Below, piece by piece: positions 10,255 to 28,173 of a stretch of DNA of 42,599 nt; position 1 is the stretch's first letter, and each line of letters opens with the position of its first letter. The position numbers and the translations under genes are program-made. The notes below the pieces were generated by a model that ran no database searches, was not told where the DNA came from, and was given only the letters and a program-made list of their open reading frames with translations. Source of the stretch: Clostridia bacterium (GTDB lineage Bacteria; Bacillota; Clostridia; Christensenellales; Aristaeellaceae); assembly GCA_017427165.1 (NCBI GenBank), contig JAFRTK010000104.1, positions 1 through 42,599 of the forward strand. The letters run 5' to 3'.

Positions 10255-10301
10255 CGGACAAACCGGACCTGCACCGGCACAAGGGGAAGGAGCAGAAACG
10301 G

Positions 10302-10330: not shown

Positions 10331-10375
10331 TGAGTCAAGAGACAAAGACTATATAACCTTCGGGAGGGACAAAGC

Positions 10376-11299: not shown

Positions 11300-11339
11300 A
11301 AACAGGCGTCTGCCGGAATGGAACGGCAGGCGCCTGTTT
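11300..11339. terminator. Bidirectional terminator between convergent genes
   Basis: A 16-bp stem (11300-11315 with 11324-11339, one G-T pair) is flanked by AAA and TTT. It lies between the plus-strand hydrolase and the minus-strand LRR gene and can serve both. Confidence 0.85.
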
Positions 11340-11355
11340 ATCTGCAGGCAGCGTT

Positions 11356-12780
11356 TTACGGGGCAGAACCCGGAGTGATTCCGGACAGGCTGCCGCACTG
11401 TTCAAAGGCATCGGGGGCAATTTCCGCGGGCGGATCCGGCAGCGTAACGCGGCGCAGATTCAGGCATCCTGAAAACGCCTGCTGCCGGACAGTGCGTACG
11501 CTGTCCGGAATGACGATTTCCGCAAGCTGCTCGCATGCCAGGAATGACCGGACACCAATGGACCGGATACCGGACGGGAGAAATACTTCGGCCAGACCGG
11601 TACAACCGGCAAAAAGCTCATCCGGGACTTCCGCCGCAGCATCCGGAAAGCGGAAAGAAGTGAGCGCAAAGCAGCTCCGGAATGCTCCGGAACCGATCAT
11701 ACCGCATTCGGGCGGCAGGATGATTTCCCGGAGACTGTAACAGCAGGAGAAGGCATCGGCACCGACTGAACGGATGCCGGACGGGATGTCTATGCCTTCC
11801 AGGCTGACACAGTTCAGGAAAGCACCATCTTCAATCCGGGATACCCGGGCCGGCAGCGTGACGCGGACCAGACTCCGGCAGCCGGCAAAGGCGCTCCGGC
11901 TGATGACCCTGATGCGCCGAGGAAGCTCAATGGCTTCCAGCGCGGAGCAGTTGAAGAAAGCCGCCTCTCCGATGAAGGTGATGGTTCCCGGAAGGGACAG
12001 TTCCCGGAGAGCAGCACAATCCGCAAAGGTCTTCTCTGCAATGGCGGTAACCGAATCCGGAACGGACAGGGTGCGCAGGGAACGGCAGCCGTAAAATGCG
12101 GAGGCACCGATGAAATCAATGCTGCCCGGAAGACCGGCAGACTGCAGGGCGGTGCAGAGGCCGAATGCCTTCTGGCCGATGGTAGTGACGGAATCCGGAA
12201 GCGTAAGCGCTGTGAGGTTATCACACGCATAAAACGCGGACGCCCCGATGGTTTTCACACCGTACGGAACAGAATATGGTCCGCGGGGACGAACCGCGGT
12301 AAATGTGACCAGCCGGTAGTCCCGGCGGCTGAAAAGCACACCGTCCGCGAACTGAAGCGCCGGATGATCATCAGAAACGATGATATCAGCCAGCATGCTG
12401 CAGGCAGTAAACGGATTCCGGCCGATATCGTTCAGGCTGTCCGGAAGGAAAACGGCCGCAAGACCGGTGCAGTAGAGAAAGGCGTAGTCACCGATGGAAG
12501 TGATGCCTTCCGGAATCGTGACATCCAGCAGGGAAGAACACCACGCGAAGGATCTTTCACCCAGGGAGGAAACCGGGACACCGCCGAGATGGTCGGGCAC
12601 AACCACCACATCCGCGCCTCCCGTGAAACGCGTGATCATGGCGGTTCCGTTGTCCAGGAGAATGTATTCATAATCCCCGCTGACGAGGATTCCGTTGTCC
12701 GGTGAGACAGCCATGGCAGAAGGGCATACAGAAAAAAGGCACAGCATACATGCCAGCAGCAATGCCGCAAGTTTCCGCAT
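11356..12780 (-). CDS. Secreted BspA-type leucine-rich-repeat protein (LRR_5)
   Basis: 474 residues from the ATG at 12780, chosen because GAGGTGAAGG lies just upstream and a clean signal peptide follows (MRKLAALLLACMLCLF..., cleavage near residue 24). The rest is almost entirely 22-24-residue LRR_5 repeats of the form IxxxAFxxCxxLxxIxLPxxIxxIG, about 14-16 units, as in BspA-like surface proteins of anaerobes. No anchor domain, catalytic motif or sorting signal is seen. These proteins usually mediate adhesion or protein binding, but the partner is unknown. The gene is monocistronic and divergent from the diguanylate cyclase gene. Confidence 0.92.
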   Translation of the reverse strand: MRKLAALLLACMLCLFSVCPSAMAVSPDNGILVSGDYEYILLDNGTAMITRFTGGADVVVVPDHLGGVPVSSLGERSFAWCSSLLDVTIPEGITSIGDYAFLYCTGLAAVFLPDSLNDIGRNPFTACSMLADIIVSDDHPALQFADGVLFSRRDYRLVTFTAVRPRGPYSVPYGVKTIGASAFYACDNLTALTLPDSVTTIGQKAFGLCTALQSAGLPGSIDFIGASAFYGCRSLRTLSVPDSVTAIAEKTFADCAALRELSLPGTITFIGEAAFFNCSALEAIELPRRIRVISRSAFAGCRSLVRVTLPARVSRIEDGAFLNCVSLEGIDIPSGIRSVGADAFSCCYSLREIILPPECGMIGSGAFRSCFALTSFRFPDAAAEVPDELFAGCTGLAEVFLPSGIRSIGVRSFLACEQLAEIVIPDSVRTVRQQAFSGCLNLRRVTLPDPPAEIAPDAFEQCGSLSGITPGSAP

Positions 12781-12997: not shown

Positions 12998-14899
12998 ATG
13001 GGTCCAGGCAAGCAACAGTACCGGATCGCCTTTTTTACGGTTGACTGGAATTATGAACTGGTTGAAAGCACACTGCATGGCCTGAAACGGTATGTGGATG
13101 ACCATGAAAATGTATATATCTATATCTTTGACTGTCTGGGCAAGGATCTGGACAACGCAAAGGACAAAAGCGAATACATCATCTTTGACCTGCCGGATCT
13201 CCGCAAGTTTGACGGAGTACTGGTGCAGGGAAATCAGATTGTGCTGAAACGGGTGCGGGACGCCATTGAGCAGCGGATTGTGGAAGCCGGTGTCCCGGCT
13301 GTCAGTATCGGAGCCCCGATGGAAGGATGCTCATTGATCCGCTTTGACAACCGTGAGGCACAGCGGGCGATCGTAAACCATGTGATCCGTGACCATCATG
13401 CGGCAAAGCTGGTTTACCTGACCGGCAATTCGGAAAACGGCAGCCCGGAAGCCCGGGAACGGATGGACGGGTTTATGGACGCGTGCCGGGAAAACGATAT
13501 TCCGAAGCATGATGTGCAGATCATTCCCGGCACATGGCGCACGAGTGATGGCGCGGATCTTGCGGACACCTGGATCCGGGAAAAACGGGCGATGCCGGAC
13601 GCATTTGTCTGCGCAAATGATGAAATGGCCATCGGCCTGATGAATGCCCTGAAAAACCGCGGTGTCCGAATTCCGCAGGATGTGATTGTGACCGGGTTCG
13701 ACAACCTGACCAGTTCCGAGCTTTCCAGCCCCCGGCTGTCCACAGTGGGCGGAGACAACCAGGCCCAGAATTACCAGGCGATGGACATGCTGATCAGCCT
13801 GATTGACGGGAAGGATTCCCGGAAGGAATTGATTACGGATTACCATGTCGTGTGCTCCGAATCCTGCGGATGTCCTGAAACGGCCCGGCCGGGCACGATC
13901 CGGGAACTGTATTTCCAGCAGACACGATTCCTGAAGGATTTTTACAACCTGCAGGGGCAGATGGCGGAAGACCTGTTTGAAGCGAACAACCTGCAGGACC
14001 TGGTGGAAACCGTAGGCAAAAACCGCCGGATCTTCGGCTGCCAGGATATTTACCTGTGCTTCAATGACTATTACTTCGACCACTTCGACAAAAGCGAGTG
14101 GCCGGAGGAAGAAAAACCCTTCGGCGAGGAAATGATCCTGGCTGTCCGGAAAAACGGGCATCCGGGCGGAAACGGAAGCGAAAACTATGAGTTTATCCGC
14201 TTCCGGACGGAAGAACTCCTGCCGAAGCCCCTGCTCACGCGGGAACGGTTTATGATGTTCTATCCGCTGCATTACAACACCTATTCCATCGGCTATATCG
14301 CACTGGACGGAATCAGCGACGCGGCGAAGATGAACCTGCATGAGAGCATATTCAATTTCCTGGAAATCGCGATTGAAAACGTCCGGAAAAAGGAACTGCT
14401 CCGGCAGTTCAACGAGACGCTGGACGAGCTGTATGTGCGTGACAGCCTGACCGGATTGTACAACCGGTTCGGACTGAAACGCTTCGGACAGGAAACATTT
14501 GACTGGCTGATGGAGCGGGACGGCGGCGCCCAGGTCCTTTTCACGGACATGGATGATATGAAGCTGGTCAACGACCTGTACGGCCATAACGCGGGCGATG
14601 AGGCACTGAAGGCGTCCGCGTGGATCCTGTCGGAATGCTGCGATCCGGAGGATGTCATCATCCGGTACGGCGGCGATGAATTTGTCATTATCGCAAGGTG
14701 GGACGAGAAAGACCTGAAGAAACGGATCCTGGCAGCCGCGGATGAGTACAACGGGAGCTCCGGGATGCCGTTCCAGCTTGGGTTCTCCATCGGCACATGC
14801 AGTGCGGAGGCTTCGGAAGGAAAGACGATGGACGACTGTATCAAGGTCGCCGACGCCCGGATGTACGAGGTCAAAACCGAGCGGAAAGCCGGAAGATAA
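12998..14899 (+). CDS. LacI-type sugar-binding sensor fused to a GGDEF diguanylate cyclase
   Basis: 633 residues. Residues about 8-290 match the effector-binding half of LacI/GalR regulators (type 1 periplasmic-binding fold, with VTGFDN at about 231-236) but lack the DNA-binding helix-turn-helix. A middle region (about 300-455) resembles a GAF-like domain, a helical linker covers about 455-485, and a GGDEF domain covers about 486-633. The active-site motif GGDEF is intact at 558-562. The usual inhibitory RxxD site is DPED (549-552), so product inhibition may be lost. There is no signal peptide or membrane segment, so it is probably a cytoplasmic sensor making c-di-GMP in response to a small molecule. 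The start has AAAAAGGAG upstream. It ends 33 nt before rnfC. Confidence 0.9.
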   Translation: MGPGKQQYRIAFFTVDWNYELVESTLHGLKRYVDDHENVYIYIFDCLGKDLDNAKDKSEYIIFDLPDLRKFDGVLVQGNQIVLKRVRDAIEQRIVEAGVPAVSIGAPMEGCSLIRFDNREAQRAIVNHVIRDHHAAKLVYLTGNSENGSPEARERMDGFMDACRENDIPKHDVQIIPGTWRTSDGADLADTWIREKRAMPDAFVCANDEMAIGLMNALKNRGVRIPQDVIVTGFDNLTSSELSSPRLSTVGGDNQAQNYQAMDMLISLIDGKDSRKELITDYHVVCSESCGCPETARPGTIRELYFQQTRFLKDFYNLQGQMAEDLFEANNLQDLVETVGKNRRIFGCQDIYLCFNDYYFDHFDKSEWPEEEKPFGEEMILAVRKNGHPGGNGSENYEFIRFRTEELLPKPLLTRERFMMFYPLHYNTYSIGYIALDGISDAAKMNLHESIFNFLEIAIENVRKKELLRQFNETLDELYVRDSLTGLYNRFGLKRFGQETFDWLMERDGGAQVLFTDMDDMKLVNDLYGHNAGDEALKASAWILSECCDPEDVIIRYGGDEFVIIARWDEKDLKKRILAAADEYNGSSGMPFQLGFSIGTCSAEASEGKTMDDCIKVADARMYEVKTERKAGR

Positions 14900-14932: not shown

Positions 14933-16282
14933 GTGAGAAACACGTTTCGCGGCGGGGTACACCCGGAGGAGCGGAAGGAGCTGAGCCGTGAGGCCCGGCT
15001 GCGCCTGTTTGACCCGAAAGGGGAAATGGTATTCCCGCTCCAGCAGCATATCGGGAAGCCCGCAAAGCCGCTGGTCCAACGGGGAGACGAGGTGCTGACA
15101 GGCCAGAAAATCGCGGAGGCGGACGGATTTGTTTCCGCCCATATCTACTCCAGCTGCTCCGGCAAGGTAAAGGCGATTGAAAAACGCCGGGTGCTGGGCG
15201 GAGGCATGATTGACTGTATCGTGATCGACAACGACGGGCAGTTTACTCCCTTCGCGGATTTTACGCAGAAGGAAAGCGCATCCCACCTGTCCAACGACGA
15301 TATTATCAATCGTGTGCAGGAAGCCGGTATCGTGGGCCTGGGCGGCGCCGGATTCCCGACGCATGTCAAGCTGAAGCCCAAAGATCCGGATGCGATCCAG
15401 TACATCATTGCGAACGGCGCGGAATGCGAGCCGTACCTGACCTGCAATGACCAGCTGATGCGCACGCAGTCCACAGCGATCGCGGAAGGCCTGGAGCTGG
15501 TTCTCCGCCTTTTCCCGAACGCGGAGGGCGTGATCTGCATTGAGGATAACAAACCCGAGGCGATCCATGCGATGCAGATTGCCGTTTCCGGAAAGCCGAA
15601 GATCCGGGTGCAGGAAATGATCACAAAGTACCCCCAGGGCGGTGAACGCAGCCTGATCCAGGCGGTGACGGGAGTTGATTTCCCGATCAGCAAGCTGCCG
15701 GCAGATGTGGGATGCATTGTACAGAACGTAGGGACGCTGTACGCGATCCAGCGCGCTGTGCTGTACCATGAACCGCTGTTCAGCCAGTGCTTTACGGTGA
15801 GCGGCGACGCGGTGAAGGAGCCCGGCAACTTCTTTGTGCGGGTCGGCACAAGCTACGCGGAGCTGCTGGAGGAATGCGGCGGCATCAAGGACGAATGCAA
15901 AGCTGCCAAGGCGCTGGCCGGCGGCCCGATGATGGGTGTTGCCATCGGCAGCCTGGATATTCCGATCCAGAAGCAGAACAACGGACTGACCGTGATGGCG
16001 GAAGACCCGGTGGAGGACGCGGAAAAACTGATGACCGCCTGCCTGCACTGCGGACGCTGCACCACGGTATGCCCGGTGGGACTGATGCCCCAGCTGATGG
16101 CCGACGCGGCGATCGCCGGGGACCTGGCCCGATATGAGAAGAAGCTGTACGGCTTGGAGTGTATCCAGTGCGGCAGCTGCACCTTCATCTGCCCGGCCAA
16201 ACGGCCGCTGATGCAGGTGTTCAAACAAGCCAAAGCGGAAATCACTGCCGCGAAGAAACGGGAAGGGGGGAACCAGAAATGA
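14933..16282 (+). CDS. rnfC: Rnf complex subunit C (NADH-side, 2x[4Fe-4S])
   Basis: 449 residues. RnfC is the peripheral cytoplasmic subunit of the ion-translocating ferredoxin:NAD+ oxidoreductase and binds NAD(H) and FMN. GLGGAGFPTHVK at 135-146 is the family's nucleotide/flavin signature. Two [4Fe-4S] motifs are at Cys370/373/376/380 and Cys410/413/416/420. The start is GTG at 14933, with GGAAAGGAG at 14913-14921 upstream. The ATG at 14911 is in another frame. It is the first gene of the rnf cluster in the usual C-D-G-E-A-B order and overlaps the next start by ATGA. Confidence 0.97.
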   Translation: MRNTFRGGVHPEERKELSREARLRLFDPKGEMVFPLQQHIGKPAKPLVQRGDEVLTGQKIAEADGFVSAHIYSSCSGKVKAIEKRRVLGGGMIDCIVIDNDGQFTPFADFTQKESASHLSNDDIINRVQEAGIVGLGGAGFPTHVKLKPKDPDAIQYIIANGAECEPYLTCNDQLMRTQSTAIAEGLELVLRLFPNAEGVICIEDNKPEAIHAMQIAVSGKPKIRVQEMITKYPQGGERSLIQAVTGVDFPISKLPADVGCIVQNVGTLYAIQRAVLYHEPLFSQCFTVSGDAVKEPGNFFVRVGTSYAELLEECGGIKDECKAAKALAGGPMMGVAIGSLDIPIQKQNNGLTVMAEDPVEDAEKLMTACLHCGRCTTVCPVGLMPQLMADAAIAGDLARYEKKLYGLECIQCGSCTFICPAKRPLMQVFKQAKAEITAAKKREGGNQK

Positions 16283-17820
16283 GCGAGGCGCTGAATATTT
16301 CCTCTTCTCCCCATGTAAGGGACAGATGGACAACCCCGTATATCATGCGGGTCGTGCTGCTGAGCCTGATGCCGGCTACCTGTGTCGGAATCATTTCATA
16401 CGGCTGGCAGGCATTCGCGATTGTCGCGCTGGCTGTGGTTTCAGCCGTACTGACCGAATGGGTATTCAACAAGATCGTCCATAAGCCGAACACGATCTGG
16501 GACGGCAGCGCGGCCGTGACCGGCCTGCTGCTGGCGCTGTCCCTGGGACCGCGTACGCCGCTGTACCTGCCGGTGATCGGCTCTGTGTTCGCAATCGCGG
16601 TTGTCAAAGGCTGCTTCGGCGGACTGGGCAAGAATTTCATCAACCCGGCGCTGGCGGCAAGATGCTTCCTGCTGATCTCCTTCGCTAACGCGATGAGTAT
16701 TTCCCCGATCCTGGACGCGACGTCTTCCGCAACGCCCATGGGCGTGCTGAGGATGAACGGAACGGTGGACATCACCCGGATGTTCCTCGGAACAGCGGAC
16801 GGCGTCATCGGCAGTTCCATCCTGGCACTGCTGATCGGCGGCCTGGTGCTGTGGAGCATGGATATCATCCACGGCCAGATCTGCTTCTCCGTGCTGGGCG
16901 GATTCACCCTGTTTATCGCGCTGTTCGGCGGACAGGGCTTTGATATCAAATTCCTGCTGGCGCACCTGTGCGGCGGCGGTGTGGTCATGGGCGCGTTCTT
17001 CATGGCGACCGACTATGTGACCAGCCCGGTCAGCCGGCTGGGACAGTTCATCTACGGCTGCCTGATCGGCGTGCTGGGCGGCGTGTTCCGGCTGTACGGA
17101 AACACGGCGGACTCCTTCAGCTACGCGATCATTATCGGCAATGTCTGCACGCCCCTGATTGACACCTACATCGTCCAGAAGCCGCTGGCTTACCGGAAGA
17201 TCGGCAAGACCCGCCCGGTAAAGCGGGAACCGTTCCGGATTCCGAAGCCGGTGATCGCCCTGACGCTGATTGCGGCAATCGCAGGCGTGGCGCTGAGCGG
17301 TGTATATTCCATGACCAAGGGAACCATCGACCTGCAGGAGCTGCAGAAGAAGACCGCCGCATACAAGGAAGTATGTCCGGAAGCGGAAACCTTTGAACTG
17401 GTGGACGCGGCGGAGGAACTGATCGCGAAGCAGGATGAGAAAGCTTCCCCGAAGATCAACGAATTCTACGTCGGCAAGACTGCGGACGGCCAGGTGGCCG
17501 GATATGCCGCGAGCGTAACCGCCAAGGGATTCGGCGGGGACGTGACCATGGCGCTTGGCCTGACACCTGACGGTGCAGTCCGGAAGATTGCTTTCACGGA
17601 ACTGAACGAAACAGCGGGTCTGGGCATGGAGGCGGACAAAGCGCCCTTCAAGGACCAGTTTACCGGCAGGGCCGGTGAGCTGAACCTGATCAAGGGCACC
17701 GCATCCGGAGAACAGGAGATCAGCGCACTGACCGGTGCGACGGTTACCTCCACGGCTGTGGTGAACGGTGTGAACGCCGGACTTGCATTCTGCGAAGAAG
17801 CAACGAAGGGAGGCAATTGA
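16279..17820 (+). CDS. rnfD-rnfG: Fused RnfD-RnfG subunit of the Rnf complex
   Basis: 513 residues in one uninterrupted frame. Residues 1 to about 315 are RnfD (multi-helix membrane subunit; flavinylation motif SSATP with Thr152 as likely FMN-phosphoester site). After a short charged linker, residues about 323-343 form the RnfG membrane helix, followed by the extracytoplasmic FMN-binding domain. That domain has GFGGDV, NETAGLGM and the motif TGATVTS (485-491; FMN expected on Thr490). In most Rnf operons these are two genes. The open frame extends upstream of 16279, but the ATG at 16279 overlaps the rnfC stop (ATGA) and begins a typical RnfD. Both flavin sites look intact, so a functional fusion is likely. 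Confidence 0.95.
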   Translation: MSEALNISSSPHVRDRWTTPYIMRVVLLSLMPATCVGIISYGWQAFAIVALAVVSAVLTEWVFNKIVHKPNTIWDGSAAVTGLLLALSLGPRTPLYLPVIGSVFAIAVVKGCFGGLGKNFINPALAARCFLLISFANAMSISPILDATSSATPMGVLRMNGTVDITRMFLGTADGVIGSSILALLIGGLVLWSMDIIHGQICFSVLGGFTLFIALFGGQGFDIKFLLAHLCGGGVVMGAFFMATDYVTSPVSRLGQFIYGCLIGVLGGVFRLYGNTADSFSYAIIIGNVCTPLIDTYIVQKPLAYRKIGKTRPVKREPFRIPKPVIALTLIAAIAGVALSGVYSMTKGTIDLQELQKKTAAYKEVCPEAETFELVDAAEELIAKQDEKASPKINEFYVGKTADGQVAGYAASVTAKGFGGDVTMALGLTPDGAVRKIAFTELNETAGLGMEADKAPFKDQFTGRAGELNLIKGTASGEQEISALTGATVTSTAVVNGVNAGLAFCEEATKGGN

Positions 17821-17821
17821 G

Positions 17822-18580
17822 ATGAAGAAGTATTTCGAGCGCCTCTGGAACGGCCTGGTCAAGGAAAACCCGGTTCTGGTCCTGATGCTGGGCATGTGCC
17901 CGGCCCTGGCAGTATCCACCCAGGCGATGAACGGTATCGGCATGGGCCTGAGCACCCTGGCGGTACTGGTGCTGAGCAACCTGGTGATCAGCCTGCTGCG
18001 GAAGGTGATTCCGGACCAGGTCCGGCTGCCTGCGTATATTGTGATTGTAGCCAGCCTGGTGACGGTGACGGAGCTGCTGATCAAGGCCTATATTCCCAGC
18101 ATTTATGAAGCGCTGGGCATCTACATTCCGCTGATCGTGGTGAACTGCATCATCCTCGGCCGTGCGGAAGCTTACGCCAACAAACATACGCCGCTGCTCT
18201 CCGTGATGGATGGCATCGGTATGGGTATCGGCTTTACAGTCGCACTGACGATTGCCGGTGCGATCCGTGAACTGCTGGGCGCCGGAAAGATCTTCGGCTT
18301 CCAGCTCCTGCCGGAAGGATTCGGAATGACGATCTTCATCCAGCCTCCGGGAGCGTTCCTGGTATTCGCGCTGATCATTGCCGTGATGAACGCGATCGGC
18401 ATCAAGACCCGCCAGCGCCAGCTGGTGGAAAGCGGATGCGACGGCAACTGCGCACTGTGTGCCACCGTGTGCAGCGACCGAAAGGAAGAAACTGCCGGCG
18501 CGGAAGAGCAGCAGAAAGCGCTGCAGGAGGCGCCCAAGGCCATTGAGGCCGCCGCGAAGGAAGGAGGCGAGGCGAAGTGA
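17822..18580 (+). CDS. rnfE: Rnf complex subunit E
   Basis: 252 residues with six membrane helices. RnfE pairs with RnfA to carry electrons across the membrane through an intramembrane iron-sulfur site. The expected cysteines are present (Cys26 in GMCPALA and Cys109 in VNCIILG). After the last helix there is an unusual hydrophilic tail of about 50 residues with four cysteines, Cys206, 210, 213 and 217 (Cx3Cx2Cx3C), then an Ala/Glu-rich stretch. The start at 17822 is set by AAGGGAGG 7 nt upstream, just after the rnfD-rnfG stop. The stop overlaps the GTG start of rnfA. Confidence 0.95.
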   Translation: MKKYFERLWNGLVKENPVLVLMLGMCPALAVSTQAMNGIGMGLSTLAVLVLSNLVISLLRKVIPDQVRLPAYIVIVASLVTVTELLIKAYIPSIYEALGIYIPLIVVNCIILGRAEAYANKHTPLLSVMDGIGMGIGFTVALTIAGAIRELLGAGKIFGFQLLPEGFGMTIFIQPPGAFLVFALIIAVMNAIGIKTRQRQLVESGCDGNCALCATVCSDRKEETAGAEEQQKALQEAPKAIEAAAKEGGEAK

Positions 18581-19155
18581 ACGGACTGATCATGATTATG
18601 GTGGGCAGCGCCCTGATCAGCAATGTCGTGCTGAACCAGTTCCTGGGAATCTGTTCCTTCCTCGGTGTTTCCAAGCAGATGAAGGCATCCGCCAGCCTCG
18701 GCGTGGCTGTCATCTTCGTTATCACCATTGCCAGCGCCGTGGCCAGCCTGCTGTATGACTATGTGCTGAAACCGCTGGGCATGGACTTTATGAAGACGAT
18801 CATCTTCATCCTGGTGATTGCCGCCCTGGTCCAGATTGTGGAAATGTTCCTGAAGAAAAAGTCCCCCGGGGTGTACCAGGCGCTGGGTATCTACCTGCCG
18901 TTGATCACCACCAACTGCGCGGTGCTGGGCGTTGCCCTGAACAACGTGCAGGACGGGTACAACTTTATCGAATGCGTCACCAGCGGCTTTGGTACCGCGG
19001 TGGGTTACACCATCGCGATTATCCTGCTGGCCGGAATCCGTACCCGGATCAATGAGAAAGACCTTCCGGCCCCGCTGCGGGGCGCCCCGATTGTCATGAT
19101 TGCCGCCGCGCTGATGTCCATCGCGTTTATGGGCTTCGGCGGGCTGCCGCACTGA
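18577..19155 (+). CDS. rnfA: Rnf complex subunit A
   Basis: 192 residues with six membrane helices, homologous to RnfE but inserted in the opposite orientation. Conserved cysteines Cys26 (GICSFLG) and Cys114 (TNCAVLG) fit the shared intramembrane iron-sulfur site. The start is GTG at 18577, overlapping the rnfE stop as GTGA, with AAGGAGG upstream. Translational coupling with rnfE is likely, giving equal amounts of the two partner subunits. Confidence 0.96.
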   Translation: MNGLIMIMVGSALISNVVLNQFLGICSFLGVSKQMKASASLGVAVIFVITIASAVASLLYDYVLKPLGMDFMKTIIFILVIAALVQIVEMFLKKKSPGVYQALGIYLPLITTNCAVLGVALNNVQDGYNFIECVTSGFGTAVGYTIAIILLAGIRTRINEKDLPAPLRGAPIVMIAAALMSIAFMGFGGLPH

Positions 19156-19169
19156 GGAGGTGTGAACGG

Positions 19170-19964
19170 ATGAATATCATTCTGGCAACCACACTGGTCA
19201 TTGCGGTCATCGGAATCTGCGTCGGCGCAGGCCTGGTCTTTACGGGAAAGAAATTCGCTGTTGAAGTGGATGAACGGGAAGTGGCGGTTCGGTCCAAACT
19301 GCCCGGCAACAACTGCGGCGCCTGCGGATACGCGGGATGTGACGCCCTGGCGGCGGCGATCGCCAAAGGGGAAGCCCCGGTGAACGCCTGCCCGGTGGGC
19401 GGCGCGGCTGTGGCAGAAGCCATCGGCGATATCATGGGTACCCGGGCGGGAGCCATGGAACGCAAGGTCGCGTTTGTTGCGTGCAAAGGCACCTGTGACG
19501 TCACGCATAACCAGGGAAACTATATCGGAATCAAGGACTGCCGGGCGGCTGTGATGGCCGGCATCAATATCACTGACTGCAACTATGGCTGCCTGGGCTT
19601 TGGCTCCTGCGTGGATGTGTGCCCGGAACAGGCAATTTCCATCCGGAACGGCGTTGCCGTTGTGAACCGGAACCGCTGCGTCAGCTGCGGCCTGTGCGCC
19701 AAGACCTGCCCGCGGGGACTGATCACCCTGATTCCGGAAAGCCGGATTATCCGGGTGCAGTGCTCGAACAAGGATAAGGGACCCCAGGTGAAGAAGGTCT
19801 GTACTGCAGGGTGCATCGGCTGCGGCCTGTGCGCGAAACAGTGCGAATTCGACGCGATTGAATTCGACGGAACGCTTGCCCGGATCAATCCGGACAAGTG
19901 CACGCTGTGCGGAAAGTGCGCAGCAAAATGCCCGGTGAAAGCGATTACCACGACCGCTGTATAA
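19170..19964 (+). CDS. rnfB: Rnf complex subunit B, multi-[4Fe-4S] ferredoxin-side subunit
   Basis: 264 residues. An N-terminal membrane anchor (about 3-25) is followed by a CGACGYAGC...C cluster motif and then four more cysteine motifs (CNYGCLGFGSCVDVCP, CVSCGLCAKTCP, CIGCGLCAKQCE, CTLCGKCAAKCP). RnfB takes electrons from reduced ferredoxin in the cytoplasm and passes them to RnfA/E. The length and motif set are typical for clostridial RnfB. The start at 19170 has GAGGAGGTG upstream. The flavin-NrfA gene starts 12 nt after the stop. Confidence 0.97.
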   Translation: MNIILATTLVIAVIGICVGAGLVFTGKKFAVEVDEREVAVRSKLPGNNCGACGYAGCDALAAAIAKGEAPVNACPVGGAAVAEAIGDIMGTRAGAMERKVAFVACKGTCDVTHNQGNYIGIKDCRAAVMAGINITDCNYGCLGFGSCVDVCPEQAISIRNGVAVVNRNRCVSCGLCAKTCPRGLITLIPESRIIRVQCSNKDKGPQVKKVCTAGCIGCGLCAKQCEFDAIEFDGTLARINPDKCTLCGKCAAKCPVKAITTTAV

Positions 19965-19976
19965 GGAGAGATGGCC

Positions 19977-22361
19977 ATGAATAACTTTGAGAAGAAACAA
20001 TGGCTTCGGTTAATTCTCTGTGCAATGGTTCTGATTGCTGTTTCCCTGTTCCTGACGGGAATTATCGGCGGGGAACACATGACTTACAGCCTGACGGAAA
20101 AAGCGGACGCCCCGGCGGTAAACGGAACTGCCGTGGAAGAGGCTGAACAGGGCTTCGGCGGCACAGTGACTGTGAAGGCGACACTGGACGGTTCGACCGT
20201 ACAGGCGCTGACCGTTGAAACACCGGACGAAACGCCCGGGCTGGGCCAGCGGGCTTCCGAGGAAGATTTTACCAGCCAGTTTATCGGCAAGGAAGGCCCG
20301 TTCACCTTCGGAGAGAACGGGATTGATGCGCTGAGCGGCGCGACCGTGACTTCGAATGCGGTACTGAAGGCACTGAACCGGGCAATCACCGGTGAGGATG
20401 CCGCGGAACCGGCGGAAGAACCCAAAGCGGAAGTGAAGGAAGAGCCTGGAAAGGAAACGACAGAAGAACCCAAAGCGGAAGTGAAGGAAGAGCCTGGAAA
20501 GGAAACGACAGAAGAACCCGCTCCCGCTGCGGCGGAAGAGCCCAAAACGGAAGAATCCGCTGCTGAACCGGAGACTGCCGGCACAGCCGTAGAAGAAACC
20601 GTACAGGGCTTCGGCGGTGAAGTGACAGTCAAGGCAACGCTGGACGGAAAGACAGTCAAGACACTGTCCATCGATACTCCGAATGAAACTCCCGGCCTGG
20701 GCCAGAAGGCTTCCGAGGAGGCTTTCACCAGCCAGTTCATCGGTAAGGAGGGTCCGTTCACCTACGGCGAGAACGGCGTTGAAGCGATTACCGGCGCGAC
20801 TGTGACATCAAACGCGGTGCTGGAGGGCCTGAACAAGGCATTCCCCGCTGAGACGGTTGCAGAACCCGCCGCAGAAGAGCCGGCGGCGGAGGAAAAGGCT
20901 GCTGAACCAGCTGCCGGGACCGAAATTGAGAAGTCCGAACAGGGCTTCGGCGGTGAAGTGACAGTTAAGGCAACACTGGATGGAACGACGGTCAAAGCCC
21001 TGTCCATCGATACTCCGAATGAAACCCCTGGCCTGGGCCAAAAGGCTTCCGAGGAAGCGTTCACCAGCCAGTTTATCGGCAAGGAAGGCCCGTTCACCTA
21101 TGGTGAAAACGGCGTTGAGGCGATTACCGGCGCGACGGTGACTTCCAACGCGGTACTGAAGGCGCTGAACCAGGCGTTCCCCGGAGCGGAACCTGCTGCG
21201 GAAGAGAAGAAGGAAGAAGCAAAGCCTGCCGCGGAGGCCGAGACGGCGAAGAAAGAAACGGCCCAGGTACCGGCTTCCGTGATTTCAAAGGTTGCGGTGA
21301 CCATGGGACAGAACTCCGAGAACAATATTGTGACAAGCTACCTGGAGCAGGACCCGTACCTGAAGAACATCTATGAGGGATACGGATTTGCGAAGGATTA
21401 CGGCAGTGCCCGCGGCCATACCTACACGCTGGAAGATGTTTCGAAGACTCTTCGGCCCCATCCGAAAGCCAACTGCATTACCTGCAAGACGGATGATTTT
21501 GCCCGCCTTGTCAATACGGAAGGAATCGAAGTCTATTCAAAGGCATTTGATGAAGTAATGCCGCTGATGAAGAACACAATCTCCTGTTACAACTGCCACG
21601 GGGACGGAATGGGAATGGACGGCCAGCTGGCGGTTTCCCACAGCTATGTGAAGACGGCACTGGGGGATGCAGCGGCAGAAATTCCCGCCGCGATCCTCTC
21701 CTGTGGGCAGTGTCACATTGAGTATTACTTCACCCCATCGGACAGCGAGACCATGATGCCTTATCACAACAAAGCTGAGATGACCCCGGAAGCCATCCTG
21801 GCTTACTATGATGCGATGGGATTCTATGACTGGGAGCAGCCGGGCACCGGAACCAAACTGCTGAAAGCCCAGCACCCGGAAATGGAAACGGTACTGGCCG
21901 GAAAACACGCGGCGAATTTTGGTATGACATGTGCGGACTGCCATATGCCGCAGGAAACGACGGATGACGGTATTGAATACCGCAGCCACTACTTTGTGAG
22001 CCCTCTGGCGAATGAAATTCTTCTGAATTCCTGCACAAAGTGCCACGGAACCGCGGAAAACCTGATTGCCTTGGTGCAGAACGTACAGGGAAAAGTGACT
22101 GCCCGCGAAACCGAAGTCGGCAACAAACTGAGCGCGCTGAAGGATAAGCTGACAGCTGCTGCTGCGGACGGAAAGCTCGGAGCGGAACAACTGGACGCTG
22201 TACGCAAGCTGCACAGGGAAGCGCAGTGGTTCTTTGACTTCTGCTATGTGGAGAACTCCGAAGGCGCGCACAATTCCGCGCTGTCGCTGTCCTGCCTGGA
22301 TACGTCCGAAGCGAAGATCGACGAGGCCATGGTTCTGCTTGGCGAAAGACAGGATGTCTGA
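19977..22361 (+). CDS. nrfA: Triple FMN-binding domain protein fused to pentaheme nitrite reductase NrfA
   Basis: 794 residues. The ATG at 19977 is preferred over 19971 because AAGGAG (19963-19968) is 8 nt away rather than 2. Residues about 11-31 form a membrane anchor without a clear cleavage site. Three RnfG/NqrC-like FMN-binding domains follow (about 50-138, 205-290, 317-402), each with GFGG, TPxETPGLGQ and an S/T-GATVTS motif; FMN is expected on Thr125, Thr277 and Thr389. Glu/Pro/Ala/Lys linkers join them. Residues about 430-794 are NrfA: CITCK (500-504, catalytic haem with Lys ligand), then CxxCH at 537-541, 576-580, 652-656 and 686-690. Candidate active-site residues lie in ARGHTY (Arg), CHIEYYF (Tyr) and QHPEME (His). 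NrfA reduces nitrite to ammonium with six electrons outside the membrane. No nrfH is present. Confidence 0.93.
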   Translation: MNNFEKKQWLRLILCAMVLIAVSLFLTGIIGGEHMTYSLTEKADAPAVNGTAVEEAEQGFGGTVTVKATLDGSTVQALTVETPDETPGLGQRASEEDFTSQFIGKEGPFTFGENGIDALSGATVTSNAVLKALNRAITGEDAAEPAEEPKAEVKEEPGKETTEEPKAEVKEEPGKETTEEPAPAAAEEPKTEESAAEPETAGTAVEETVQGFGGEVTVKATLDGKTVKTLSIDTPNETPGLGQKASEEAFTSQFIGKEGPFTYGENGVEAITGATVTSNAVLEGLNKAFPAETVAEPAAEEPAAEEKAAEPAAGTEIEKSEQGFGGEVTVKATLDGTTVKALSIDTPNETPGLGQKASEEAFTSQFIGKEGPFTYGENGVEAITGATVTSNAVLKALNQAFPGAEPAAEEKKEEAKPAAEAETAKKETAQVPASVISKVAVTMGQNSENNIVTSYLEQDPYLKNIYEGYGFAKDYGSARGHTYTLEDVSKTLRPHPKANCITCKTDDFARLVNTEGIEVYSKAFDEVMPLMKNTISCYNCHGDGMGMDGQLAVSHSYVKTALGDAAAEIPAAILSCGQCHIEYYFTPSDSETMMPYHNKAEMTPEAILAYYDAMGFYDWEQPGTGTKLLKAQHPEMETVLAGKHAANFGMTCADCHMPQETTDDGIEYRSHYFVSPLANEILLNSCTKCHGTAENLIALVQNVQGKVTARETEVGNKLSALKDKLTAAAADGKLGAEQLDAVRKLHREAQWFFDFCYVENSEGAHNSALSLSCLDTSEAKIDEAMVLLGERQDV
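20415..20519 (+). repeat. Exact 48-bp tandem duplication in the first interdomain linker
   Basis: The 48-bp unit at 20415-20462 is repeated exactly at 20463-20510, followed by 9 further matching bases. It encodes EEPKAEVKEEPGKETT twice and keeps the frame. Exact identity suggests a very recent duplication. Confidence 0.95.
20594..21192 (+). repeat. Near-identical FMN-binding domain duplication
   Basis: The regions coding for flavin domains 2 (about 20594-20848) and 3 (about 20930-21184) match almost base for base over roughly 250 bp at an offset of 336 bp. Domain 1 (about 20128-20390) is clearly more diverged. Domain 3 is therefore probably a recent copy of domain 2 or kept alike by gene conversion. 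Confidence 0.85.
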
Positions 22362-22367
22362 AAAAAC

Positions 22368-22391
22368 CGCCGGAAGCGAGAGCTTCCGGCG
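22368..22391 (+). other. Intercistronic hairpin with GAGA tetraloop between nrfA fusion and resB
   Basis: A perfect 10-bp stem (22368-22377 with 22382-22391) is closed by a GNRA-type GAGA loop 6 nt after the stop codon. No T run follows, so it is not a standard terminator. It could stabilise the upstream mRNA or reduce expression of resB and ccsA relative to nrfA. Confidence 0.7.
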
Positions 22392-22409
22392 TATTGAAGA
22401 CGGGGTAAT

Positions 22410-23441
22410 ATGACGATACTCAAAAAAATCAGAAAGATCCTGGGCTCCATGCCGCTGGCCATCACCCTCCTGGTGATGCTTGCCGCGGCATGCGGCGTTT
22501 GCTCGGCTGTTCCGCAGGGGCAGACATATGAGTGGTATGCCAGCCAGTATGGCGAACGGACGGCTGCTGTGATTATGGCACTCCATGCAGATGATGCCTA
22601 TCACAGCTGGTGGTTCCTGGCCCTGAGCGGATTCCTGTGCCTCAGCCTTCTGATGTGCAACCTGATCCGGATAAAGCCGCTGATTCGCCGCACCGGAAAA
22701 GAACCGGGAAACTTTGCCGGAATCTGGGGTGCATGGGTGTGTCACCTGGGAATCCTGCTTCTGATTATCGGATTTGCACTGGGGCAGATGACCCAGGAGG
22801 AATACACGATCAGCGGACTGCCCGGGGATACCGTTCCGCTGGCAGATACCGGTCTGCAGGTAACGGTGGACGACTTTATGATTGACTGGCGGGAAGACGG
22901 GACAGCCGGACAGTATACTGCTGAGCTGACGGTTCGCAGCGCTGACGGGAAAGACGAGCAGCAAGGAACGGCCAGTGTGAACCATCCCGCGGAACTGTTC
23001 GGATACGAGTTCTTCCAGAACTCCGCGGGATGGGCGGCAGACGTGACGGTGGAGAAGAACGGGGAGATCCTGCAGAAGAAAACCCTGTGTGTGCAGGAAT
23101 ATATGCCGCTGGAAGATGATCCCGACATCGTGGTGATGTTTTACAACTTTTATCCGAACTATGATGGTGAGACGGGAACTGTATCCCCGATGGCATCCAC
23201 TCGTCCGGAGAAGCCAGGATACCTGTACATGGTTTTCTACCAGGGAGAGGTACGGGGAATGAATGTGCTGGAAACGGATGACGAGATTACCATTGACCAG
23301 GAATATACCGTCCGGTTCAGTAATCCTTCCAACTATACACTGCTGATGGTGAAACGGGACCGGTTTTCCTGGATGGCTATGCTGGGCGCTGCGATCCTGA
23401 TGGCGGGGCTGGTTATGGCCTTCTATCTGCGAAAGAGGTGA
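22410..23441 (+). CDS. resB: ResB/Ccs1-family cytochrome c biogenesis protein
   Basis: 343 residues. Two N-terminal membrane helices (about 13-33 and 68-87), a third at about 108-126, a large extracytoplasmic domain (about 130-315) and a final helix (about 322-340) match the ResB/Ccs1 layout, though it is shorter than many members. Together with CcsA it forms the system II haem lyase that attaches haem to CxxCH motifs outside the membrane. The start at 22410 has only a weak ribosome site (ACGGGG), fitting lower expression than the cytochrome. ccsA begins 8 nt after the stop. The position right behind a CxxCK-containing cytochrome suggests a dedicated haem lyase (inference). Confidence 0.88.
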   Translation: MTILKKIRKILGSMPLAITLLVMLAAACGVCSAVPQGQTYEWYASQYGERTAAVIMALHADDAYHSWWFLALSGFLCLSLLMCNLIRIKPLIRRTGKEPGNFAGIWGAWVCHLGILLLIIGFALGQMTQEEYTISGLPGDTVPLADTGLQVTVDDFMIDWREDGTAGQYTAELTVRSADGKDEQQGTASVNHPAELFGYEFFQNSAGWAADVTVEKNGEILQKKTLCVQEYMPLEDDPDIVVMFYNFYPNYDGETGTVSPMASTRPEKPGYLYMVFYQGEVRGMNVLETDDEITIDQEYTVRFSNPSNYTLLMVKRDRFSWMAMLGAAILMAGLVMAFYLRKR

Positions 23442-23449
23442 CGATCTGA

Positions 23450-24265
23450 ATGGAACAGGCTGAGAATATCCTGTTTACGATTGCCATGGTCGGTTATTTC
23501 CTGGCGATGCTGCTGTACTTTGTGTTTGCCGGACTGAAGAGAAACGCAGCGGCAAAGGCGGCGGCAGTGATCCAGATGGGCGGCCTTGCAGCCCATACAG
23601 CAGCGCTGATTGTGCGCGGAATTGCCGCCGGACGGGTACCGATGACCAACCAGTATGAGTTCGCCACCTGTTTTGCGTGGGCGCTGTGCCTGGTCAGCCT
23701 GATATTTATCGCGAAATACCGGTTCAGTTTCCTTGGTGTGTTTGCAGCGCCGGTGGTTTTCCTGATTATGGGATATGCTGCCATGCAGAGCCGGGAAATA
23801 CATGCACTGATGCCGGCACTGCAGAGCAACTGGCTGGTCTTCCACGTTTCCACGGCGATTATGAGCTACGGGGCTTTCGGGGTCAGCTTTGTACTGGGAT
23901 TCATTTTCCTGGTGCGGGAAAAGATACGGAAAGACGGGTTTATGGACCAGCATATCCCGGAACGGGACAAGCTGGATGTCATTGAATACCGCAGTGTATG
24001 CCTGGGTCTGCTGTTCCTGACGATTACCATAATAACCGGGGCATTCTGGGCAAAAAAATGCTGGGGAAGCTACTGGAACTGGGACCCGAAGGAAACCTGG
24101 TCTCTGGTAACCTGGATTATCTATGCAGTGTACCTGCACCTGCGGATCATGCGCGGGTGGAAAGGGAAGGCGGCGGCTGTTTTCGCAGTTGTCGGATTCA
24201 TCTGTGTGATTTTTACCTATATCGGTGTGAACACATTCCTTCCGGGACTGCACAGCTACGCATAA
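23450..24265 (+). CDS. ccsA: CcsA/ResC-family haem lyase subunit
   Basis: 271 residues with about eight membrane helices. The haem-handling WWD motif is WGSYWNWDPKE at 205-215. Candidate haem-ligand histidines flank it: His132 (WLVFHVS) and His268 (LPGLHSY). This is the channel/ligase half of system II cytochrome c maturation and works with ResB encoded just upstream. The start has AAAGAGGTGA upstream. Some organisms use a special CcsA-type lyase (NrfI) for the CxxCK haem of NrfA, so this one is a good candidate for the same task. Confidence 0.93.
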   Translation: MEQAENILFTIAMVGYFLAMLLYFVFAGLKRNAAAKAAAVIQMGGLAAHTAALIVRGIAAGRVPMTNQYEFATCFAWALCLVSLIFIAKYRFSFLGVFAAPVVFLIMGYAAMQSREIHALMPALQSNWLVFHVSTAIMSYGAFGVSFVLGFIFLVREKIRKDGFMDQHIPERDKLDVIEYRSVCLGLLFLTITIITGAFWAKKCWGSYWNWDPKETWSLVTWIIYAVYLHLRIMRGWKGKAAAVFAVVGFICVIFTYIGVNTFLPGLHSYA

Positions 24266-24283: not shown

Positions 24284-25501
24284 ATGAAACGATTTCTGGC
24301 ATTTCTGGCCGTACTGGTCATGATCTGGGGAGGAACGGCAATGGGTGAATTTGCAAAGGAAGAATGGTACCAGTCCGCGCTGAAAGACTCTGAAATGCGG
24401 CTTGGCAACAATGTCCGCCTGCTTAAACTGATTGAGCGGGCCAGGGCCGGTGAGCATATCACCATCGGTACCATGGGCGGATCGATCACCGAAGGCGCCG
24501 GCGCCTCCAACTATAAGGAGTGCTGGGCCAGCCGATTTGCCCTGCGCTTCGGAAACACCTACGGTGTATCGAACGGAAGCAATGTGGAACTGGTGAATGC
24601 CGGCGTCGGAGGAACCCCGTCTGCATTCGGCTACATGCGGTTCAACCGGGATATCAACAGCCGGGTCAGTGAGAAGGATCCGGACGGTTATCCGGACCTG
24701 GTGATCATTGAATTCGCTGTGAATGACTGGGGTGAGCCGACCAACCATCACTGCTTTGAGTCGATGGTGAAGGAAGTGCTGGAATACCCCAATGAACCGG
24801 TGGTAATCCTGCTGTTCTCCATGCGGGACGATGGCTGGAACCTGCAGGGTGACCTGCGGAAGATCGGCGATGTGTATGACCTGCTGATGGTTTCGATTCC
24901 GGACGGACTGTACAAACATGTCGGGAAGGAAATGGAGAAGAAGGATTTCTTCCATGATGAGTACCATCCGAACTCCACCGGCCACCGCATGATGGCGGAC
25001 TGCCTGATGCAGGCCATCGCGGATGCCGCGGCGAAGGAACCCGACGAAGCGGATATCGACCTGACTGTCTGGCCGGCATACGGCACGGACTTTATGGGCC
25101 TGAAGACGCTGTACGCGGATGAGGAAACCGAAGGATTTACCGTGGAACGCGGCGGATTCGCCAGCATTGACCTGCAGACTTACCGGAACACGCCGGTGGG
25201 CTGGGTATGCGGGAAAAACTACTTCCATGATATCAAGGATCCGGATGAGCCGCTGAAGGTGACAGGTGTATTCTCCAAATGCCTGATTGCCTGGAAAGCT
25301 TCGGCGGACGCAGTCTTCGGTGCGGCAGAGGTGTATGTGGACGGAAAGCGCGCGACCATCCTGCGGGGCGGCCCTGGGAAATGGAACCAGAGCGAAGTGG
25401 CGCTGGTGCTGAACGGGAAGAATGCCGCGGAACATACCATCCTGATCAAAGTAACGGAGCCAGGCAAGAAATTCACGATTACCGCGATTTCAGTGAAGTA
25501 A
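24284..25501 (+). CDS. Secreted SGNH/GDSL-family esterase
   Basis: 405 residues. A signal peptide at about 1-21 precedes an SGNH hydrolase domain with block I Ser67 (MGGSITEG), block II NAGVGGT, block III Asn147 (AVNDW) and block V Asp225/His228 (DEYHPN). Residues about 255-405 form a C-terminal beta-rich domain. Such proteins often remove acetyl groups from xylan or other glycans, which fits the xylanases elsewhere in the window, but the substrate is unproven. The gene begins 18 nt after ccsA with GGGGG upstream, so it appears co-transcribed with the cytochrome genes although it has no obvious redox role. Confidence 0.88.
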   Translation: MKRFLAFLAVLVMIWGGTAMGEFAKEEWYQSALKDSEMRLGNNVRLLKLIERARAGEHITIGTMGGSITEGAGASNYKECWASRFALRFGNTYGVSNGSNVELVNAGVGGTPSAFGYMRFNRDINSRVSEKDPDGYPDLVIIEFAVNDWGEPTNHHCFESMVKEVLEYPNEPVVILLFSMRDDGWNLQGDLRKIGDVYDLLMVSIPDGLYKHVGKEMEKKDFFHDEYHPNSTGHRMMADCLMQAIADAAAKEPDEADIDLTVWPAYGTDFMGLKTLYADEETEGFTVERGGFASIDLQTYRNTPVGWVCGKNYFHDIKDPDEPLKVTGVFSKCLIAWKASADAVFGAAEVYVDGKRATILRGGPGKWNQSEVALVLNGKNAAEHTILIKVTEPGKKFTITAISVK

Positions 25502-25563: not shown

Positions 25564-26100
25564 TTACTCTACAGCAGCCGCTCCACGTTCCATCGCCTGG
25601 CGGTTGATGGGAAGCAGGTGCTCCTTCTTTGGACCGAAGGTGGCCTTCAGGGCTTCCATGGCGGAATCGATGGAGACCACACCGGTCTTCTTCAGGATTG
25701 CACCAAGCATAACCATGTTGGCGGTACGGGCATTGCCAAGCTCTTCCGCAATACCGTTGCAGTCCACCGGGATCGCGACAATGTCATCGCGGTCGGGGGT
25801 GATGTCGATCAGGGAGGAGTTATACAGCATGATGCCGCCCTTTTCCATAGCGGGGGTGAATTTGATCATGCTGGGCTTGTTCATGATGACAGCGAAGGGG
25901 ATTTCCGTAACAAGCGGAGACCCGATCGGTTCATCGGAGATGACCACGGCGCAGTTGGCTTCACCGCCGCGCATTTCCGGACCGTAGGACGGCATCCAGG
26001 AAACGTTCATCCCTTCGTGCATGGCCGCCTTGGCCAGCAGCTGGCCGATGAGCAGGACGCCCTGGCCGCCGAAACCGGCAATCAGAAATTGAGCTTCCAT
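25564..26100 (-). CDS. korC: 2-oxoacid:ferredoxin oxidoreductase gamma subunit
   Basis: 178 residues matching the POR/KOR gamma domain: GFGGQGVLLIGQLLAKAA near the start, YGPEMRGGEANCAVVIS and the C-terminal NMVMLGA. The four-subunit enzyme oxidatively decarboxylates a 2-oxoacid to its acyl-CoA and reduces ferredoxin. It is the last gene of the operon and starts 3 nt after the beta stop. Whether the enzyme acts on 2-oxoglutarate (Kor) or branched-chain 2-oxoacids (Vor) cannot be settled from sequence alone. Confidence 0.92.
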   Translation of the reverse strand: MEAQFLIAGFGGQGVLLIGQLLAKAAMHEGMNVSWMPSYGPEMRGGEANCAVVISDEPIGSPLVTEIPFAVIMNKPSMIKFTPAMEKGGIMLYNSSLIDITPDRDDIVAIPVDCNGIAEELGNARTANMVMLGAILKKTGVVSIDSAMEALKATFGPKKEHLLPINRQAMERGAAAVE

Positions 26101-26103
26101 GGA

Positions 26104-26841
<738 letters not shown>

Positions 26842-26843
26842 GA

Positions 26844-27920: not shown

Positions 27921-27935
27921 GGATACGCTTCCTCC

Positions 27936-28139
27936 TTATTTTTCTACTTTGATCACGGCGTCCGGGCACATGCGGGCACAGAACGCGCAGCCGATGCACT
28001 TATCCTGCTCCGTAATGCAGATGGGGTGATACCCTTTGGCGTTAATGTCCTTACTCAGGGCGAGGAGATGCTTCGGACATACGTCAGCACACAGGCCGCA
28101 GCCTTTGCAGGTCTCCCGGTCAATGGTCAGTTTGGCCAA
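27936..28139 (-). CDS. korD: Ferredoxin-like subunit (2x[4Fe-4S]) of the 2-oxoacid oxidoreductase
   Basis: 67 residues with two cluster motifs, CKGCGLCADVCP (11-22) and CIGCAFCARMCP (48-59). The start is TTG at 28139, chosen because AAGGAGG lies 9 nt upstream and the product then begins MAKLTID, as in related subunits. In-frame ATG codons further upstream overlap the promoter and are unlikely. It is the first gene of the operon and passes electrons from the catalytic core to free ferredoxin. Confidence 0.88.
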   Translation of the reverse strand: MAKLTIDRETCKGCGLCADVCPKHLLALSKDINAKGYHPICITEQDKCIGCAFCARMCPDAVIKVEK

Positions 28140-28173
28140 GGTGTTCCGCCTCCTTACGTAATTGCTAACGATC

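Follow-up and report, generated by a model that had tools for sequence, protein, structure and literature searches.

We analysed a stretch of 42,599 nucleotides (nt) from a fermenting gut bacterium of the Clostridia (contig JAFRTK010000104.1, positions 1-42,599; hereafter the window) in which eight genes, all on the plus strand between 14933 and 24265, join the Rnf subunits C, D, G, E, A and B to an NrfA-type cytochrome and to a cytochrome c maturation system. Rnf is an ion pump that oxidises ferredoxin, which is the strongest reductant in the cell. The same gene order is found in 58 non-duplicate stretches of DNA, which is more than chance. We consider it probable, from sequence comparison, that the block encodes a quinone-free branch for nitrite ammonification fed by Rnf; this applies to the nitrite arm, and an accompanying gain of energy is put forward with less confidence.

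Families were named by Pfam and NCBIfam profile matches to the window proteins; below, G codes denote genomes and L codes loci or stretches. Re-derived reading frames gave the order rnfC, fused rnfD-rnfG, rnfE, rnfA, rnfB, flavin-NrfA, resB and ccsA, with junctions of -4 to +48 nt:

14933-16282, plus strand: rnfC, 449 amino acids (aa); TIGR01945 493 bits, over cut-off
16279-17820, plus strand: rnfD-rnfG fusion, 513 aa; 4-nt overlap (ATGA) with rnfC
17822-18580, plus strand: rnfE, 252 aa; TIGR01948 243.3 bits; gap of 1 nt after rnfD-rnfG
18577-19155, plus strand: rnfA, 192 aa, GTG start; TIGR01943 247 bits; 4-nt overlap with rnfE
19170-19964, plus strand: rnfB, polyferredoxin subunit, 264 aa; TIGR01944 96.6 bits, Fer4 repeats; gap of 14 nt
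19971-22361, plus strand: flavin-NrfA (three FMN_bind domains and NrfA), 796 aa; PF02335 252.9 bits, PF04205 three times; gap of 6 nt
22368-22391, no strand assigned: G+C-rich hairpin of 10 bp in the nrfA-resB gap, with a T-run on the minus side alone
22410-23441, plus strand: resB, system II cytochrome c maturation, 343 aa; PF05140 139.3 bits; gap of 48 nt
23450-24265, plus strand: ccsA/ccsB, system II cytochrome c maturation, 271 aa; TIGR03144 265.7 bits, over cut-off; gap of 8 nt

A preliminary description of the window had listed eight genes on one strand with gaps of at most 48 nt, which we confirm, and the family searches support every gene name. Its statement that the block lacks a convincing internal terminator also holds. 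The four terminator-like sites on the plus strand have stems of 5-7 pairs and all lie inside genes, and the plus strand after the nrfA-resB hairpin reads TATTGAAG. Both strands together hold 16 such sites compared with 9.3 (standard deviation 3.1) in shuffles, and a promoter scan returned 5 against 4.3 expected. The RnfC protein aligns nearly end to end with 7zc6_C (Clostridium tetanomorphum) and 9eri_C; its 4Fe-4S motifs are present and the motif GLGGAGFPTHVKL, which we take to be of the flavin mononucleotide (FMN)/NADH type, is intact. The fusion protein carries the RnfD membrane part first and, in the same frame, an RnfG part with the flavin motif TGATVT. It scores 320 bits with PF03116, together with FMN_bind, and 229.5 bits with TIGR01946 (rnfD). 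The RnfG part lies slightly below the TIGR01947 cut-off (96.0 versus 102 bits) and is supported by FMN_bind and a match to 9eri_G, so that the single window chain matches both 9eri_D and 9eri_G.

Judged by family, heme motifs, active site and fold, the window cytochrome is a full NrfA and is predicted to reduce nitrite. An N-terminal helix (residues 5-29) is followed by three FMN_bind domains (SGATVT, TGATVT, TGATVT) and the pentaheme NrfA part (approximately 435-796), whose five c-heme sites are CITCK, of the lysine-ligated type, CYNCH, CGQCH, CADCH and CTKCH. The PF02335 match of 252.9 bits compares with a cut-off of 24.1; matches to stricter NCBIfam NrfA models stay below their cut-offs (208.8 of 595 and 167.3 of 692.5). 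The last 361 residues match NrfA structures in the PDB (best 3ubr, E 8.9e-46), and the active-site Arg, Tyr and His as well as the nearby Gln, Lys and Glu align with 1gu6. In an alignment of 72 rows (including duplicates, 10 non-linked rows and cut rows; L007, L019 and L033 left out), the Lys of CxxCK, the Gln and the His are each found in 71/71 filled rows, the Glu and the first Tyr of EYY in 72/72, with the second Tyr differing in three rows, and the active-site Arg in 69/70, with W in L068. We presume that the conserved positions are E. coli R106, Y216, Q263 and H264; the titles of 2rf7 (Q263E) and 4wjy (H264N) fit two of these positions, Q263 and H264. An AlphaFold model of the flavin-NrfA, based on a 24-row alignment, comprises a single N-terminal helix, three small alpha/beta domains and a helical NrfA part. 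Its mean predicted local distance difference test score of 68.9 and predicted template modelling score of 0.49 are middling, and the domain arrangement is therefore not usable. Foldseek with this model returned the NrfA structures 3ubr, 2rf7 and 1gu6 first, followed by 7zc6_G (RnfG) and 8p2b (a multi-flavin domain). A hydrophobic 19-residue stretch lies in the first 70 residues in 57/57 cases; that of L124 resembles a signal peptide. As a separate observation, L023 (9782-12214, plus strand) carries two tandem NrfA domains in one frame of 811 aa with ten heme sites, located behind rnf.

A contig scan with NrfA yielded at least 42 loci, 38 of them (L002-L039) with NrfA relatives. Record titles point to metagenome-assembled genomes (MAGs) or uncultured bacteria, for the most part Clostridia or Bacillota, and many refer to rumen or gut samples; two read Spirochaetes and may be mislabels. 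PF02335 searches found NrfA in 16 of 41 genomes (the window's genome and 40 relatives), in 18 of 396 order-level genomes (7 of 142 genera, three family codes) and in 5 of 391 class-level genomes, the window's genome among them. We examined 74 stretches with NrfA (the window, L002-L039, L060-L075 and L113-L131): 58 have same-strand rnf genes upstream and 10 lack them, two (L069 and L117) are duplicates of L002 and L006, and four are truncated by a contig end or make up the other half of a split locus. The ten unlinked stretches comprise four standalone loci, five class-level stretches of another NrfA type, and L014. Within the order-level set found by hidden Markov model (HMM), 30 genomes (16 plus 18 less 4 shared), 25 are Rnf-linked, 4 are not and 1 is cut. 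The co-location first noticed in the window is thus conserved in relatives, and the block order persists among NrfA proteins as little as 51% identical, whereas the genes on either side change. Of 57 rnfB-nrfA spacings measured, 54 fall between -4 and +90 nt; in the exceptions, two reading frames (L007, L118) or a flavin protein (L124) stand between them. After the linked nrfA, resB is found in 55/58 and ccsA in 51/58 stretches, with contigs ending before resB or ccsA could show in L075, L017, L022, L039 and L118. In an NrfA tree of 66 rows (six rows left out), linked NrfA proteins form one clade (starred support 100/99) with L014 and L116 inside and the four standalone proteins as sister. NrfA and Rnf distances correlate with r 0.53 across 51 loci, and 0 of 999 shuffles reached this value. 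A link that is general in the class was rejected, as only 5/391 genomes have PF02335 and the four non-window ones carry another NrfA type; their five stretches (L127-L131) gave no rnf match in the DNA examined, which is 7.7 kb for L127.

Three single observations belong to these loci. In L025 (8972-11086, plus strand), rnfB and nrfA form one 705-codon frame, which topology would permit, although a stop codon missing from a single MAG could be an error. The two small frames in L118 (8457-9036) have the look, by eye, of a RelE/ParE-type toxin-antitoxin pair. The standalone sister type corresponds to L071, L072, L073 and L123, and NrfH was not found in three of its four genomes (G794 not searched).

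The Rnf associated with NrfA is of a separate type. A tree of five concatenated Rnf proteins from 72 loci (L117, L069, L021 and loci missing any of the five genes left out) separates 11 canonical loci from one clade of 61 (starred support 100, branch 1.02); the tree was built quickly, and branches between its canonical rows are long. The clade holds 54 loci with NrfA and 7 without, the latter all from the window's genus, and the starred branches require NrfA presence/absence to have switched at least 6 times. RnfD and RnfG form one frame of 505-532 aa in 64/64 uncut loci of the NrfA-type Rnf (two duplicates counted; L031 is cut), 61 of which carry the RnfG flavin motif as written. For the canonical Rnf, RnfD stands alone in 11/11 loci (305-382 aa) and the fusion is found in 0/11. 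The fusion could bear on the coupling mechanism. Among the 41 genomes, each of the 13 with a linked NrfA, including that of the window, has a single rnfC above the cut-off (in G016 on another contig, at a break); the NrfA-linked Rnf must therefore also do the usual Rnf work. Compared with 7zc6 and 9eri, RnfC and RnfD appear intact. As a side note, L080, L081 and L084 from the window's genus have a canonical-type Rnf in which rnfD and rnfE lie too close together to fit rnfG in between; at the sensitivity used, rnfG gave no match there.

We searched two genome sets, the 41 genomes introduced above and the 37 genomes behind L003-L039, both with incomplete MAGs among them. Completeness is 80% for the window's genome and 97-99% for G001, G002, G022 and G033. 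A quinol-oxidising NrfH partner elsewhere in the genome, which the preliminary description had named as speaking against its proposal, was looked for and not found: NrfH (NapC/NirT family, PF03264) is 0/41 and 0/37, incomplete MAGs included, with a positive E. coli control. The supposed lack of quinone synthesis likewise held up: the search for UbiA-family prenyltransferases was negative for the window's genome and for the six 91-99% complete genomes G001, G002, G008, G010, G022 and G033. Over cut-off, UbiA was seen in 4/41 genomes, including one (G012) of the 16 with NrfA, and in 1/37 of the second set with one more below cut-off; controls were 14/14 positive. This result concerns quinone synthesis; quinones may still be taken up. 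ResB is present in 16/16 NrfA genomes and in 0/25 others, the same 16 of 41, and this matching presence suggests that ResB and CcsA serve this NrfA.

Flavin domains at NrfA are restricted to 15/58 linked stretches (14 by tblastn or motif, L004 by Pfam) and were rejected as a defining trait. The preliminary description had made extra flavins an essential step towards NrfA, for which we see no support; the simplest shared route therefore runs from the RnfG flavin straight to NrfA. All three flavin motifs of the window protein fit [ST]GA[ST]x[ST], and its genome shows two partial matches, at contig pieces, to the flavin-attaching ApbE, which is found in 34/41 genomes and in 15/16 of those with NrfA. 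In the closest relative, L124, whose rnf proteins are 98-99% identical to those of the window, the genes after rnfB encode first a four-flavin protein and next a 974-aa fusion of FMN_bind, FAD_binding_2 and NrfA (8770-11688, minus strand). With its complete NrfA, this fusion is possibly a two-substrate terminal reductase. Compared with L124, approximately 2.2 kb are missing from the window and flavin domain three is joined in frame to NrfA at approximately 21185-21300, which may reflect a natural in-frame deletion or an assembly join. Flavin-NrfA fusions also occur in the one-contig genomes G022 and G811 (L064, L113), so such fusions exist in the genus. In other genus members flavin domains precede NrfA, follow it or flank it on both sides, and L067 and L068 show none.

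The NrfA-less loci L077, L078 and L079 of the window's genus carry a multi-flavin protein in the place of NrfA, with an anchor like that of the window flavin-NrfA. A fumarate-reductase-like protein with FMN_bind and FAD_binding_2, which begins like a signal sequence, is encoded by the next gene in L077 and the second next, after a GDSL gene, in L079; Pfam assignments of both gene types were made for the L077 pair only. L003, L062, L066 and L114 also have this fumarate-reductase-like gene close to the block. Neither gene was found in the 1.6 to 5.8 kb after rnfB in L076, L082, L083 and L085. The cassette behind the NrfA-type Rnf therefore varies between NrfA, a multi-flavin protein with or without the fumarate-reductase-like protein, a fusion with NrfA, or none. 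At the gene level, the outer end is modular with exchangeable reductases.

For Rnf, a path from RnfB via a [2Fe-2S] cluster of RnfA-RnfE to the outer RnfG flavin and on to RnfD and RnfC has been described (PMC12174285). By homology, reduced ferredoxin would deliver electrons to RnfB, from where they would pass the [2Fe-2S] cluster between RnfA and RnfE and reach the covalent RnfG flavin at the outer face. There, NrfA, held in the membrane by its own N-terminal helix and equipped with hemes by ResB and CcsA, would accept them, directly in most relatives and via ApbE-attached flavins in the window, and would reduce nitrite made by other microbes to ammonium. The remaining electrons would continue through RnfD and RnfC to NAD+. 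We propose this switching of one Rnf between NAD+ and nitrite because RnfC and RnfD look intact. The outer end would act as a plug-in position for NrfA, a multi-flavin protein with or without the fumarate-reductase-like flavoprotein, a fusion, or nothing. The benefit would be an electron sink for ferredoxin, plus ion pumping provided that coupling takes place before electrons leave RnfG. Two coupling models have been published, and one of them locates the channel in RnfD (PMC12174285). The nitrite branch would pump if ion movement is tied to the RnfA-RnfE step, and may not do so if ions require electrons to return from RnfG to RnfD. Of the overall reading in the preliminary description, co-location and the missing NrfH and quinone synthesis stand, and the flavins as an essential step do not. 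More broadly, these loci may represent a new respiratory chain that is ferredoxin-driven and quinone-free, with Rnf as coupling site and a plug-in terminal reductase that can be NrfA (for nitrite), a fumarate-reductase-like flavoprotein, a fusion of the two or missing altogether; we suggest this only tentatively.

The closest published description comes from Meheust 2021, where multi-flavinylated RnfGs with a multi-heme domain are reported in Christensenellales and a bifurcated path is drawn (PMC8238504). As in the window, that protein belongs to a Rnf cluster, has several FMN_bind domains and a multi-heme domain, and is proposed to open a second electron path out of Rnf; both are probably the same kind of protein. 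The section that describes it calls it RnfG and is silent on ResB/CcsA, the fused RnfD-RnfG, flavin-free members, missing quinones and the fumarate-reductase-like exchange. The main text contains no occurrence of NrfA, and the one nitrite reductase counted there is NirS, in NapH-like clusters (PMC8238504). In open-licence PMC literature, no title or abstract start among the matches listed concerned a Rnf-NrfA link. Methanosarcina acetivorans offers a precedent for the Rnf-to-NrfA link proposed here: its rnf genes are co-encoded with the outer multiheme c cytochrome MmcA, which is thought to be Rnf-fed (PMC6703419). This system differs in that it is archaeal and also involves methanophenazine, and the account of MmcA names anthraquinone-2,6-disulfonate (AQDS) and extracellular acceptors and, where seen, no nitrite role (PMC6703419). 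NrfHA ammonification in Sporomusa ovata uses the same catalytic family, but there NrfH relays electrons from the quinone pool (PMC12780646), whereas our genomes yielded no NrfH and hardly any UbiA, and the window NrfA has its own N-terminal helix. The rnf transcripts of S. ovata are unaffected by nitrate (PMC12780646). The canonical Rnf (9eri; C. tetanomorphum 7zc6) shares all six subunits with the window, and RnfC and RnfD align well; the window Rnf differs in the RnfD-RnfG fusion, in its separate clade and in the attached NrfA, ResB and CcsA. SNFR, an NQR-fumarate reductase supercomplex of Prevotella bryantii, likewise places an Rnf-family pump on a terminal reductase sink in a rumen anaerobe, but with NADH as donor, quinone and heme b in the path and fumarate as acceptor (PMC8516057). 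A rumen survey named Selenomonas and Wolinella for hydrogen-fed nrfA and set Bacteroidetes reads aside; selenomonad-like nrfA was expressed fivefold over narG, from which its authors infer use of external nitrite (PMC6776011).

Several findings weigh against an Rnf-fed nitrite branch. Seven members of the window's genus have the NrfA-type Rnf without NrfA beside it, and this Rnf is therefore not dedicated to nitrite. No molybdopterin oxidoreductase, the family that includes Nar, Nap and Nas, was found (0/41 genomes; controls 11/14 positive), so that nitrite must come from outside. L006 and L120 have neither resB nor ccsA in 9-10 kb downstream. No rnf adjoins the standalone NrfA-resB-ccsA sister clade (G009, G014, G023, G794), and in G009, which is 85% complete, no rnfC exceeds the cut-off; such NrfA can therefore use another donor. 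L014 (9719-12423), which lies inside the linked clade and has resB and ccsA, shows no rnf in 10 kb upstream and is a split of the module. The congruence of NrfA and Rnf was obtained without a species-tree control, and common descent is thus not separated from it. Further, MmcA is dispensable on acetate and its expression is unlike that of rnf (PMC6703419); co-location need not equal obligate coupling.

Of the alternatives, detoxification survives best, but we regard it as rather unlikely. Here, Rnf would feed NrfA with the aim of removing nitrite or nitric oxide (NO), and the branch would conserve no energy, e.g. since ion movement requires a step after RnfG. Within one genus the NrfA cassette is repeatedly present or absent, as would fit a protective trait that can be dispensed with, the lack of a nitrate reductase of the molybdopterin kind points the same way, and the coupling model with the channel in RnfD (PMC12174285) would be compatible. 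However, a block shared with the cell's one Rnf and, in close relatives, nearby ferredoxin-producing genes fit an electron sink. Less probable still is co-location without direct electron transfer, where nrfA and rnf would be co-regulated and NrfA fed by another donor. This would accommodate the standalone sister clade, L014 and the rnfC result for G009, but NrfH was not found and the quinone prenyltransferase is nearly absent, and the RnfG-like flavin domains fused to NrfA in 15/58 stretches and the one-frame rnfB-nrfA of L025 argue against it. NrfA enzymes also accept NO, hydroxylamine and sulfite, and the multiheme structures in the Foldseek list include sulfite complexes. Another small oxidant (hydroxylamine, NO, sulfite or a nitro compound) as true substrate, with nitrite as a side activity, is nevertheless very improbable, given an active site as in ordinary NrfA (Glu, Tyr, Lys, Gln and His kept). 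An electron conduit, in which the pentaheme domain would hand electrons to extracellular acceptors, is suggested by the 'multi-heme cytochrome RnfG' sketch (PMC8238504) and by MmcA (PMC6703419) but is very improbable as well, and a mere wire was rejected, since HMM, PDB match and fold indicate NrfA and the CxxCK motif and active-site residues, needless for a wire, are kept.

NrfA systems known so far receive their electrons mainly from quinols. If Rnf does feed NrfA, a single membrane complex would directly connect a high-potential acceptor with the redox carrier at the centre of fermentation. The conserved gene set suggests an unrecognised, quinone-free form of nitrite breathing in related rumen bacteria and would explain nitrite use by rumen bacteria without quinones. 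Fermenting rumen Clostridia would then be conditional nitrite respirers and hidden competitors for H2- and methane-bound electrons, which is of relevance for nitrite poisoning and for methane control by dietary nitrate. The swapped outer reductases would further provide a natural test set for electron withdrawal at RnfG while the pump still works, a question of Rnf/NQR mechanism.

Three features flank the block:

12998-14899, plus strand: periplasmic-binding-protein-like and GGDEF protein; 33 nt upstream of rnfC; present close by in a minority of the relatives
24284-25501, plus strand: GDSL esterase-like gene; begins 18 nt after ccsA
25564-28142, minus strand: 2-oxoacid:ferredoxin oxidoreductase (kor) genes gamma, beta, alpha and delta, a source of reduced ferredoxin

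The transcript may exceed eight genes because the same-strand GGDEF and GDSL genes are about as near as the internal genes are to each other, and the transcription unit may thus be larger than the block of the preliminary description. A GDSL gene lies near the NrfA block in 3/13 close and 0/45 distant stretches, where close means an rnfC at least 78% identical. The kor genes, in either orientation, are near the block in 12/12 close stretches of sufficient length (window included) compared with 1/32 distant ones, for which at least 2.5 kb after the block were needed; based on these counts they were rejected as module members. The flanking genes thus act as an internal control for the conservation of the block. 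An assignment of 29051-31397 (minus strand) as iorAB was also rejected, as this region matches RqcH/EfbA models and a component of an energy-coupling factor (ECF) transporter. This ECF substrate component (30810-31397, minus strand) is preceded by an FMN riboswitch (RF00050, 114.6 bits; 31486-31606, minus strand), and its context points to riboflavin uptake approximately 7 kb from the flavin-rich block. At the contig edge, 66-4202 (plus strand) encodes a large protein with SpaA and Cna_B repeats of the Gram-positive surface-protein type.

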